From contig NZ_CAMYMK010000008.1 of the NCBI RefSeq assembly GCF_947259545.1, positions 62,001 through 126,000 on the forward strand: a stretch of DNA of 64,000 nucleotides, in the 5' to 3' direction. Numbering within the stretch: position 1 is the first letter of the stretch; each line of letters begins with the position of its first letter. Positions 41,730 to 45,152 of this stretch are shown in pieces. A model generated the notes under the pieces. The model saw only the letters and a program-made list of their open reading frames with translations. It searched no databases and was not told the DNA's origin. The position numbers and the translations under genes were made by a program. This DNA comes from an uncultured Marinobacter sp. (GTDB lineage Bacteria; Pseudomonadota; Gammaproteobacteria; Pseudomonadales; Oleiphilaceae).

Positions 41730-42194
41730 ATGAAGCTTGTAAAACTGTTTGGTATCGCTCTTCTGACTATCGGGCTGGCCGGCCCGGTAATGGCTCAGGA
41801 CATGAGCCAGCAACAACGGCCCCAGGGCGACCAGGTAGACCAGCTGGCGGAGCTGGTGGGTCTGAGCGATGATCAGCAGAAAGAGATTCGCGGCATCATC
41901 GAAGAGATGCAAGGTGAGATTCAGGGTCTTCAGGCGGAAGCTCAGCAGCTGCAGCAGACTATTCAGGCCGAGATCAAGCCGGACTATAACGAAGACGCCA
42001 TCCGCGACAACGCCGAGAAGCTGGGTGACCTGACTGGCGAGATGACTGCCCTGTCCACCCTGATGCAGGCCAAGGTGGATGCGGTATTCACTGAAGAGCA
42101 GCGCGCAGAGCTGGACAAGCGCATGAAGCAGATGCAGCAGCAGATGCAACAGCGCCGTCAGATGCAGATGCAGCAGCAAATGCAGCAGCAGTAA
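41730..42194 (+). CDS. Small periplasmic Spy/CpxP-like protein
   Basis: This 154-residue protein has a signal peptide (MKLVKLFGIALLTIGLAGPV, cut near VMAQD) and a helical, glutamine-rich body. QLAELVGLSDDQQKEIRGII and MQAKVDAVFTEEQRAELDKR resemble the two LTxxQ segments of the Spy/CpxP family, periplasmic chaperones or stress-signal inhibitors. The last 30 residues are a Gln/Met repeat (MQQQMQQRRQMQMQQQMQQQ). The family assignment is moderate; a DUF4168-like coiled coil is an alternative. It is monocistronic with a GGAG site and a strong terminator. Confidence 0.75.
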   Translation: MKLVKLFGIALLTIGLAGPVMAQDMSQQQRPQGDQVDQLAELVGLSDDQQKEIRGIIEEMQGEIQGLQAEAQQLQQTIQAEIKPDYNEDAIRDNAEKLGDLTGEMTALSTLMQAKVDAVFTEEQRAELDKRMKQMQQQMQQRRQMQMQQQMQQQ

Positions 42195-42206
42195 GCGCCT
42201 GACCCG

Positions 42207-42246
42207 AAAAAAGCCGCCACGGTTCCTGACCGTTGGCGGCTTTTTT
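42207..42246. terminator. Bidirectional terminator after the Spy-like gene
   Basis: GCCGCCACGGT pairs with ACCGTTGGCGGC (one bulge). A-runs to the left and T-runs to the right make it usable from both strands: for the plus-strand Spy-like gene, and for minus-strand transcripts running past the exporter gene through both repeat elements. Confidence 0.88.
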
Positions 42247-42265
42247 GTTTTGGGCTTTGGGGGCT

Positions 42266-42375
42266 GCCTGTTGGTGTACTGGCCTCGCCAGAACCGCTAC
42301 AAGCACTTCCCTGTGCGCTTCTCTCCGGCCATCCATGGCCTCCGAAATTCTGTCGAGGCCAGTACACCAACAGGC
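42266..42375 (-). repeat. Structured repeat element, copy 1 (two GGA hairpins inside a long stem)
   Basis: Outer arms 42266-42287 and 42354-42375 are a perfect 22-base inverted repeat, extended inward by five more pairs after one mismatch. On the minus strand the core holds hairpin 1 (42327-42340, GGCC-ATGGAT-GGCC) and hairpin 2 (42303-42316, GCAC-AGGGAA-GTGC). Both loops are hexamers of the form ANGGAN closed by C-G. The core is 56/64 identical to copy 2, which lies inverted 90 bases away. No transposase or target-site duplication is seen. Confidence 0.85.
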
Positions 42376-42465
42376 GATTCGACCTCTCAGAAAGCCTTCA
42401 GAAAACTCTTTTGTATGAATTGTTAAGTCTCAGTGGCTCTTTAGGCGATATCTGAGAAGTAAGAA
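42376..42465. other. Spacer between the two repeat copies
   Basis: Ninety AT-richer bases separate the two repeat elements. I see no open reading frame of note, no clear promoter and no further copy of the core. Confidence 0.6.
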
Positions 42466-42577
42466 GAGTGTCTGTGATGGTGCCCTTCCCAAAATTTCGA
42501 AGGCCAAGGATGGCCTGAGAGAAGCGCACATGGATGTGCTCGTAGCGGTTTTGGGAAGGGCATCATTACAGACACTC
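42466..42577 (+). repeat. Structured repeat element, copy 2 (two GGA hairpins inside a long stem)
   Basis: Outer arms 42466-42494 and 42549-42577 pair over 29 positions; the two non-Watson-Crick positions are G-T, which stay paired as G-U only in plus-strand RNA. The core on the plus strand holds hairpin 1 (42502-42515, GGCC-AAGGAT-GGCC) and hairpin 2 (42526-42539, GCAC-ATGGAT-GTGC). Linkers GAGAGAAGC and GTAGCGG are shared with copy 1. The outer arms are largely unlike those of copy 1. Confidence 0.85.
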
Positions 42578-42607
42578 CCCCTCCCAAACCAGCAGGCTAC
42601 AATAAGG

Positions 42608-45100
42608 CTATTCCACGGCACCAGAACCAAACGGCTTGATCAGAACGATCAGGCGCGGCAGTAGGGTCAGGGCGCCTGCCAGGGCCATGAACATGGCGAA
42701 GCCGGTGAACAGGCCGAAGTAGATGGTCGGGATGAAGTTCGACAGCACCAGGATCGAGAAACCAATGATGATGGTCAGGGACGTGTAAAACATCGCCCGG
42801 CCGATGCTGCGGTGACAGCGGTGCATGGTGGCGATGTAGTCGCCGTCTTTGGCGAATTCGGTCTTGAAACGATGGATGTAGTGGATAGTGTCATCCACAG
42901 CAATACCGACCGTAATGGCCGCCACGGTAATCGTCATCATATCCAGCGGAATGCCCAGCCAGCCCATCAGACCCAGCACCGAGCCGGCGGCGATCAGGTT
43001 CGGGGCCATGCCGATCAGGGCCAGAAGAATCGAGCGGAACAGGATCAGGAACATTAGCATAATGGCCAGGAACACCAGGCCCAGGGTCTTGATCTGGGAC
43101 TCGAACAGACTTTGCAGCATGTTGTTGTACATCACCGTCATACCGGTTAAGAGTACCTGATCGTCATCAAAGCCAAGCTCACCGGTCAGGTGTTCGTGAA
43201 TGGTGTCCAGCAACTGATCGCGCCGCAGATCCGGCATGGTTTCCAGGATACGAACACTGAAGCGGGCCTGGTCGTGCTCTTCGGAGATGTACGGGGTCAG
43301 CAGGATGTCCTGAAGGTCGTCCGGTACCGCCGTCGGCACAAAGGCCAGCTGCAGCGCATCCAGCTGCTCACCGCCGTTGACCTGTGCCAACAGGTCCAGC
43401 GTCGTGCTGATGGACAGCACCTTGCCGGTGTCCGTCAAGCTGTCCAGATAATTGTGGACGCTCCTGAGACGCTCCATTTTCTGGTAGGTGAACCAGGTGT
43501 CCCGGTACTCCTCAGTCTCGCCGCAATCCTCGACGAACGGGTCACAATCACTGGCAAAAGGATCGCCCGAGCCCGCGTTCTCAGGGGGAGGGTCGTCGGT
43601 GATCACCACATCCAGCGGGGTGGTGCCTCCGAGGCGATTGTCTATCGTGATCATGCCCTGATGGATTTCCGTGGTGGACTTGAAGTAGTTGATGAAACTG
43701 TTTTCAACGGTAAGTCTGCTCATTCCAACCACGCACAGCACGGCAATCACCACGGAACCGCCAATCACCATCTTGCCGTGGTGTTCGGTAAAGCGGGCAA
43801 AGGCATCGGTGAACGGGATCCGGTCGGATGCGACCAAACGGTCAAGGGGCGGTGGCAGCAGCGTCAGCAACGCCGGAAAGATCAGGAACGTGATCAGGAA
43901 CGCAACGGACAGGCCAATGGTCATCATCCAGCCAAAATCAATCACCGGGCGGATGCCGCTAAAGGTCAGTGATCCGAAGGCCACGATTGTGGTAATGGCC
44001 ATGTAGAAGCAGGGTTTGATCATGGCCAGCAGCGTACGCCTCAAAGTGTCCCGGGGGGCTGCCTCCGGTTCATCGTGCTGGAATTCCCGGTAGCGGACGA
44101 TCAGGTGAATCGTCAGGGACAGGGTCATGATCAGCAGCAGCGACACGAAGTTGGAGGAAATCACCGTCACCGGCCACTGGGTCCAGGACAGGTATCCGAT
44201 CACCAGCCATACCGTGAAACCACAGCACAACAGGGGCACCAGCACCCAGCGCCATTGGCGGAAGATGATTGCCAGGGTCAGCAGCAGGAAGATCAGCACA
44301 CCCACGCCGAATGTGGACAGATCGCTCTTGATGAACCGGATCATGTCGGCAACGATCATGGGGACGCCGCCCAGATAGATTTCGGCGTGGTCCCGGTAGC
44401 TGTCCAGAATGGTGCGAACCTGGCTGATGGTCTGGTCCCGTTTCGCGCCCATCTGTTCGGTGAAGCGGATGAATTCGTTGCTGACCTGCTCGAGCTTTCT
44501 CCGGTCCTCTTCACTTGCGGTATCACTGGCAACCTTATCGCGCAGTGCCTCTCGCTGGTTGAGCAGGTCGAAATAGCGGTCCGGTGTGGGCAGGTTAACC
44601 TGGATGGCCGTTGTCCTGGCATCCTCGCTGATCAGCAGGTTGGGGTAGAGCGGGTTTTCCAGCAGCGCCTTGCGGGCCGTGTCCGGCGACACGTTGTCTT
44701 CGTCCATGGTCCGGATCTCGGAATCCACGGTGTCGAGAGTCAGGTCCGGGCTGTGGAGCAGTGGCACGTTGAGAATGCTGTTGGTGGAGCTGACTCTGTC
44801 CAGCGCTGCCAGCTCGTCTCTCAGTTGGCGAAGGGTGCCCAGGGTGTCCTCGCTGAACAGCTCGCCGTCGGGAGTGAAGGTAACGATGAGGAAGTCGTCG
44901 GACGTGGTGAAGCGCCAGTTGACCTCGCGATACTGTTCCAGCGACCGGTCGTTCTCCAGAACGAGTGATTCTGCCGAGGCATCCAGCCGGAACTGGTCGA
45001 GCCTGAGGCTGGCGAGTACGAGTATGCTGGCGAAAACAATCAGGACAACAACCGGGTGGGGGAGAATCAGCCGGTCATAGAGGGAACGGATCAGGGTCAT
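42608..45100 (-). CDS. RND/MMPL superfamily exporter
   Basis: This 830-residue inner-membrane protein is a predicted exporter of the RND superfamily. It has two repeats, each with one membrane helix, a large periplasmic loop and a cluster of about five helices. The second cluster includes AITVGIAVDDTIHYIHRF, the family's charged motif. It is shorter than tripartite RND pumps and has no adjacent membrane-fusion gene, so it groups with MMPL/HpnN-like lipid or sterol exporters. The ATG at 45100 (MTLIRSLYDRL) is preferred over a TTG at 45148. Its mRNA would run into the repeat elements downstream. Confidence 0.88.
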   Translation of the reverse strand: MTLIRSLYDRLILPHPVVVLIVFASILVLASLRLDQFRLDASAESLVLENDRSLEQYREVNWRFTTSDDFLIVTFTPDGELFSEDTLGTLRQLRDELAALDRVSSTNSILNVPLLHSPDLTLDTVDSEIRTMDEDNVSPDTARKALLENPLYPNLLISEDARTTAIQVNLPTPDRYFDLLNQREALRDKVASDTASEEDRRKLEQVSNEFIRFTEQMGAKRDQTISQVRTILDSYRDHAEIYLGGVPMIVADMIRFIKSDLSTFGVGVLIFLLLTLAIIFRQWRWVLVPLLCCGFTVWLVIGYLSWTQWPVTVISSNFVSLLLIMTLSLTIHLIVRYREFQHDEPEAAPRDTLRRTLLAMIKPCFYMAITTIVAFGSLTFSGIRPVIDFGWMMTIGLSVAFLITFLIFPALLTLLPPPLDRLVASDRIPFTDAFARFTEHHGKMVIGGSVVIAVLCVVGMSRLTVENSFINYFKSTTEIHQGMITIDNRLGGTTPLDVVITDDPPPENAGSGDPFASDCDPFVEDCGETEEYRDTWFTYQKMERLRSVHNYLDSLTDTGKVLSISTTLDLLAQVNGGEQLDALQLAFVPTAVPDDLQDILLTPYISEEHDQARFSVRILETMPDLRRDQLLDTIHEHLTGELGFDDDQVLLTGMTVMYNNMLQSLFESQIKTLGLVFLAIMLMFLILFRSILLALIGMAPNLIAAGSVLGLMGWLGIPLDMMTITVAAITVGIAVDDTIHYIHRFKTEFAKDGDYIATMHRCHRSIGRAMFYTSLTIIIGFSILVLSNFIPTIYFGLFTGFAMFMALAGALTLLPRLIVLIKPFGSGAVE

Positions 45101-45152
45101 CGGCACATAGTCCACACTGTTATAAAACGAGTGCAGAGTGTGCCACAAACTG

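Follow-up and report, generated by a model that had tools for sequence, protein, structure and literature searches.

CsrB/CsrC and RsmX/Y/Z are encoded by one to a few sRNA genes, each holding many sites, and they share GGA hairpin loops with the element that we describe here, which by contrast has two sites and many dispersed copies. The GGA loops of these sRNAs sequester CsrA/RsmA (PMC4333381). From marine gammaproteobacteria, CsrR1/CsrR2 of Alcanivorax (PMC9788540) and Aln1a-c of Alteromonas (PMC5864184) have been proposed as CsrA-antagonist RNAs; as those sources present them, they are individual sRNAs with several GGA motifs, as against the dispersed two-hairpin repeats reported below.

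The TwoAYGGAY RNA (Rfam RF01731), like our element, places two terminal GGA-hexaloop hairpins on one strand within an external stem. Weinberg 2010 (PMC2864571) lists it as a probable RNA that is probably not a cis-regulator, with the human gut, Gammaproteobacteria and Clostridiales as its sources; a paper of 2014 proposed that it sequesters CsrA, and the legend given there for RF01731 calls the external stem poorly conserved in sequence (PMC4333381). Another source terms the family 'relatively unexplored' (PMC11661157). Rfam types RF01731 as Cis-reg and places it with RsmZ (RF00166) in clan CL00106. REP/BIME repeats are dispersed, intergenic and palindromic, form inverted pairs and keep the sequence of their stems conserved. 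The element shares their dispersed, intergenic, palindromic, inverted-pair arrangement, but its stem is unique to each copy and its loops are invariant.

A divergent pair between convergent genes

The window, which is the whole 64,000-nt stretch of DNA analysed (G000:C8:62001-126000, where G000 is its own genome), was scanned for inverted repeats. Two copies were found at 42266-42375 and 42466-42577, where a reading made from the sequence alone had placed them, each with paired arms (96% complementary in copy 1, 93% in copy 2), and the core of copy 2 matches that of copy 1 at 88% over 65 nt. In the following list, R1 is a covariance model built from 24 own-genome copies, and the hairpins are read from the sequence.

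42266-42375, GGA/RNA strand minus: copy 1, TwoAYGGAY-like element, arms 42266-42293 and 42348-42375; R1 match at G000:C8:104267-104373
42259-42382, minus: RF01731 match to copy 1, 22.1 bits, E 0.54
42327-42340, minus: 5' hairpin of the copy 1 RNA, GGCC-ATGGAT-GGCC, loop 42331-42336
42303-42316, minus: 3' hairpin of the copy 1 RNA, GCAC-AGGGAA-GTGC, loop 42307-42312
42376-42465, no strand: spacer separating the divergent elements, with GATATC at 42447-42452, 13 nt ahead of the copy 2 stem
42466-42577, GGA/RNA strand plus: copy 2, TwoAYGGAY-like element, arms 42466-42494 and 42549-42577; R1 match at G000:C8:104469-104575
42451-42592, plus: RF01731 match to copy 2, 35.1 bits, E 6e-4, gathering score 43
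42502-42515, plus: 5' hairpin of copy 2, GGCC-AAGGAT-GGCC, loop 42506-42511
42526-42539, plus: 3' hairpin of copy 2, GCAC-ATGGAT-GTGC, loop 42530-42535
42593-42599, plus: CAGGCTA motif, a possible repeat-unit end, about 16 nt past the 3' arm of copy 2

On the GGA strand the loops read as had been claimed, ATGGAT and AGGGAA in copy 1 and AAGGAT and ATGGAT in copy 2, all closed by C-G. What the sequence-only reading overlooked is that each copy has an outer stem of its own, unrelated to the other, that the GGA strands diverge, and that the family is in Rfam. An ORF on the plus strand (41730-42194) lies upstream of the pair and another on the minus strand (42608-45148) ends just past copy 2, so that the pair sits between convergent genes. 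The upstream ORF is followed by a terminator-like hairpin (arms 42207-42219 and 42234-42246) with a 14-nt loop, beyond the limits of our terminator scan; a simple consensus scan of 42150-42700 returned neither a sigma-70-like promoter nor a consensus terminator, and neither window copy has a T-run 3' of its stem. At 42113-42189, 12-nt repeats (CAGATGCAGCAG-like) encode the Q/M-rich tail that ends the upstream ORF.

At the gathering threshold Rfam returns nothing but three tRNAs across the whole window. A permissive search of the locus matches RF01731 to both copies on the GGA strand, at 35.1 and 22.1 bits against a cut-off of 43; one other place in the genome exceeds the cut-off, at 44.3 bits, and the four own-genome RF01731 matches that we compared with R1 fall at the same places on the opposite (GGA) strand. 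Within the genus, 29 of 31 genomes (own included) have a match at E <= 1 and 8 of the 31 one over the cut-off, whereas none of 14 control genomes matches at E <= 1. Of 229 genomes in the class, 19 have a match at E <= 0.01 and 11 exceed the cut-off, and in three genomes all 11 scored candidates match; multi-copy RF01731 is thus not confined to the genus, some other gammaproteobacterial genomes holding several above-threshold copies. Own copies show the feature given for RF01731 of an external stem around both hairpins with weak sequence conservation. They differ from the described RNA in that positions 2 and 6 of the loops are relaxed from Y to N, in the 86 places in one genome, in the divergent pairs, in the 23-25 nt loop spacing and in the sub-threshold scores of the window copies. 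Judged from sequence, the Marinobacter elements are a many-copy, hypervariable-stem, mostly sub-threshold branch of TwoAYGGAY with divergent pairs. The statement in the sequence-only reading that no repeats of such form had been described as sponges was mistaken: RF01731 has the same anatomy, and with the CsrA-sequestering proposal in PMC4333381 the sponge idea is already in print for the family.

Neither RsmZ (RF00166) nor CsrB (RF00018) gave anything over its cut-off in 13 genus genomes, own included. A weak RsmZ-like match (28.9 bits, cut-off 44) at G000:C9:187709-187824 (L334:1010-1125) overlaps the end of an ORF and is a possible canonical Rsm sRNA.

Copy number, spread and pairing

R1 has 87 matches at E <= 0.001 in the own genome (150 candidates scored), which make 86 places because one place matches on both strands. 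With the same number of candidates, four congeners have 66, 95, 114 and 113 matches at E <= 1e-4; others are poor in copies, with 3 in G020, 3 in G026 and 9 in G029. At least one match occurs in 118 of 120 genus genomes (32 candidates scored per genome). No match turned up in two congeners, G049 and G072, although 150 candidates were scored in each; the element is accordingly dispensable, and these two genomes, having no detectable copy, are natural controls for its role. In the order, R1 matches are present in 53 of the 194 genomes and in 31 of the 96 genera (own genus included; 20 candidates scored each). The exact core pattern occurs in at least 109 stretches of named genomes, and among the matches listed (80) all are titled Marinobacter.

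Read by eye in 30 congener loci, the locus orthologous to 42195-42607 is an empty site, a pair or a partial deletion. Some congeners have a left copy of a different core class at this spot (L195-L224), the partial deletions between the arms are found in L203, L204, L216 and L223, and in L196 (the G021 locus) the left copy holds about 82 extra bases inside its first hairpin.

The divergence seen in the window is general. All 65 neighbouring copies less than 600 nt apart in the wider set diverge on their GGA strands, as do all 12 own-genome pairs with starts less than 700 nt apart, once the stronger match decides the orientation of the place that matches on both strands. Of 332 copies, 71 have CAGGCTA in the flank downstream, in most cases at +42 to +45 counted from the core. 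By eye, several divergent pairs have it as terminal inverted repeats, TAGCCTG...CAGGCTA, which are possibly the ends of a mobile unit. REP-like GTCGGATTA palindromes lie between some pairs. Along the GGA strand, the interval 30-120 nt ahead of the core, which falls in the middle of a divergent pair, is enriched in REP-like palindromes (GTAGGTCGGATTA...TAATCCGACCTAC), as in the L005/L025 pair (G000:C7:725108-725539) among others. An insertion of the core into pre-existing terminator stems was considered and rejected: the motifs recur outside stems.

In the own-genome census, 62 of the 83 copies with both neighbours found are intergenic, and some of the 21 'inside' copies may be due to spurious ORFs. 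Many own-genome copies lie within tens of bases of a stop codon, with convergent genes on either side (crude gene caller).

Invariant loops, drifting stems and a strand bias in mispairs

The two-site core is the constant part of the element. Two C[ANGGAN]G sites are present in 84 of the 86 own copies, and by eye the remaining two hold one such site and an AGGAC pentaloop; of 17,200 mononucleotide-shuffled cores, 2 had two sites, in a comparison in which the real copies also had to show at least two pairs. A chance origin of the two-site cores is excluded. The pattern that would have spoken against the sequence-only reading, loops lost while stems stay, was not seen, both ANGGAN hexaloops being kept in those 84 copies. 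Its picture of a portable two-site RNA with CsrA/RsmA-type loops on the GGA strand is supported. The hexaloops of own copies are spaced 23-25 nt from start to start.

A finder blind to the loops (inverted repeats 40-110 nt apart, 13-mer seeds) returned 367 repeats in 326 loci, unrelated ones included. The 353 repeats whose cores measure 49-90 nt contain 579 hexaloop hairpins of at least 4 bp, and 571 of these carry ANGGAN on one strand; since these loci had been fetched by core, the bystander repeats give the fairer number, 47 of 50. No scored ANGGAN hexaloop at 4 bp or more was found in 21 of the 53 bystander repeats, of which, by eye, 11 have both ANGGAN on shorter or bulged stems (in one of them, L139:5192, the closing pair is broken) and the other 10 are unrelated.

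Within the loop, A1, G3, G4 and A5 are nearly invariant and positions 2 and 6 vary, frequencies that are partly conditioned on the motif; AYGGAY accounts for 109 of 170 own loops, positions 2 and 6 being N and not Y. Of 669 hairpins, 659 are closed by C-G, and this is the free test, C-G closure being built into the search pattern of the site count and of the pair covariation. The second hairpin pair co-varies: it is formed in 251 of 251 cases in either hairpin, where shuffling gives means of 232.6 and 215.5. Deeper in the hairpins pairing is incomplete. Co-variation is absent from pairs 4-5 of the 3' hairpin, and pair 5 is paired in 13.1% of cores there and in 45.4% in the 5' hairpin; the inner stems are therefore short. 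As in a CsrA site, ANGGAN lies in a hairpin loop with its GGA unpaired, in a structure derived from sequence and co-variation. ANGGAN is the consensus, and RsmN makes base-specific contacts to both A and both G (PMC3791407). On this evidence from sequence, the loop pattern is the recognition pattern of CsrA-family proteins. A csrA gene is present in the own genome (G000:C7:765695-765850, E 2.2e-25, ORF of 65 aa). It is found in 176 of 188 genomes of the order, and being near-universal its co-occurrence with the element says little: csrA is in 51 of the 52 element-positive genomes searched (53 known in the order), one of the 12 csrA-negative genomes carries the element, and in element-positive G299 (88% complete) csrA was not found.

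The outer stem keeps its pairing and not its sequence. It spans 26-31 bp in 79 of 86 own copies and encloses a two-hairpin core of about 50-58 nt, and the 5' arms (20 nt adjoining the core) are all distinct, 86 of 86. In 24 aligned own copies, 98.1% of stem cells are paired over 26 pairs, and 25 of these 26 pairs show double-sided changes. For the full structure of 36 pairs, 98.3% are paired as against 71.6% with shuffled 3' letters, and shifting the partner by one column lowers the whole-structure figure from 98.3% to about 45%. At the window's locus, the flanks and cores remain recognisable in G021 and G054 (94% and 92% identical over a neighbouring 391-nt query), and in both the outer part of the left stem is exchanged in both arms. 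Elsewhere, the paired changes between orthologous copies are smaller (L008 compared with L238, for example), and orthologous copies with flanks only about 70-94% identical retain the core and a paired stem.

The remaining mispairs point to one strand. Read on the GGA strand, 337 elements with 8949 pairs have 111 G.U, 9 A.C and 47 other mispairs, by a finder that penalised every mispair type alike; deduplicated and with the two outermost pairs dropped, 106 G.U stand against 9 A.C, with 45 other (p = 4e-22), and the excess holds in both locus orientations (61 vs 7 and 49 vs 1). In the own genome, even scoring gives 48 G.U vs 1 A.C (20 other) and a fixed 22 pairs gives 32 vs 1 (12 other). With G.U and A.C both neutral the own-genome counts are 76 vs 23 (26 other), a ratio that probably reflects over-extension beyond the stem end, and a count of 69 vs 2 is inflated, that scoring having favoured G.U over A.C. 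Strand-symmetric mutation predicts equal counts, and the excess is most simply explained by selection on RNA of the GGA strand: the outer stem appears to be selected as RNA read from that strand. A transcription-linked mutational bias could add to the G.U excess, and it too needs GGA-strand transcription. We first favoured a mechanism at the DNA level, in which each insertion duplicates the stem in inverted form, because our first covariation count, made on the TCC strand, had no G.U in the outer stem; the hypothesis is rejected, the GGA-strand mispairs being mostly G.U.

Proposed role and competing explanations

Alongside the structure, the conserved loops, the strand bias in pairing, the copy number, the divergent pairing and the presence of csrA, all of which are observed, we consider it likely that the copies are CsrA/RsmA-binding RNA platforms, distributed sites that soak up CsrA or recruit it locally; their transcription, the binding and the direction of its effect are what we infer. 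Each copy would be a TwoAYGGAY-type structured RNA, read from the GGA-loop strand, in which an outer stem that is free in sequence but paired presents two ANGGAN hexaloops 23-25 nt apart, and a single CsrA/RsmA dimer could bridge both. Transcripts of the copies would either form the 3' portion of adjacent mRNAs or arise from the spacer of a divergent pair, and would offer sites at which CsrA is soaked up or recruited locally. Together, the 86 places would amount to a dispersed sink for CsrA, and any one copy could in addition mark or affect the mRNA that carries it. A further version of this reading, which is conceivable although we lean against it, is a genus-wide distributed CsrA sink of about 100 two-site modules per genome at most, many in divergent pairs and all spread and maintained as repeats, in which global transcription, in place of one or two sRNA genes, would set the level of free CsrA and the drifting stem would prevent recombination or cross-pairing.

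Much about the element also recalls a DNA-level repeat of the MITE or REP kind, whose hairpins, in the form of single-stranded DNA or cruciforms, would be used by a transposase or nucleoid protein, the loops having no RNA role: the copies are dispersed and mostly intergenic (283 of 309 in the wider set, by a crude gene caller), close pairs are always inverted (65 of 65; own genome 12 of 12), CAGGCTA stands at the outer ends, and the same site is occupied or empty among congeners. However, G.T is tolerated far above A.C on one strand (106:9; 48:1), for which a DNA hairpin offers no reason; selection on DNA alone predicts mispairs without strand preference, whereas the ratios are 106:9, 48:1 and 32:1. 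Orthologous copies that keep core and paired stem between flanks about 70-94% identical are also unlike recent transposition. We judge an explanation in DNA terms alone improbable; the element may be a mobile unit carrying a functional RNA. Readings as integron attC, retron or guide RNA were considered and dropped.

Two other explanations accept the RNA and change its task. The long stem might act locally, stabilising or ending the upstream mRNA, with CsrA binding secondary or absent, and the many copies placed between convergent genes and only tens of bases from a stop codon would suit such a 3'-end element. Yet no T-run follows the stem in the window, a stabiliser has no need for invariant GGA loops, and the orientation bias of solo intergenic copies in the own genome, of which 26 of 40 share their strand with the upstream gene, is not significant (p = 0.08), and we regard this explanation as unlikely. 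The loops might instead bind another RNA-binding protein, or pair with an RNA, in place of CsrA. Conserved core bases outside the loops (e.g. AAGC and AGCG, by eye) are left unexplained by CsrA and would fit a different partner, but the fixing of A1, G3, G4 and A5 with 2 and 6 free is the ANGGAN motif of RsmN/RsmZ, which makes a partner other than CsrA hardly probable in our view.

The idea of CsrA sequestration is already known for TwoAYGGAY; a search of open-access papers found no earlier description of the Marinobacter branch, its copy number, the divergent pairs or the strand evidence. Most of what is understood about CsrA antagonism comes from a few dedicated sRNAs. If the reading as distributed CsrA/RsmA-binding platforms is true, a repeat family that shows selection as RNA, stands at 86 places in one genome and has a match in 118 of 120 sampled genomes of the genus would represent a different way of organising the control of a global regulator, and a class of repeats that is easily dismissed as structural DNA would gain a function. 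Marinobacter offers a tractable host in which the 2014 CsrA proposal for the TwoAYGGAY family becomes directly testable.
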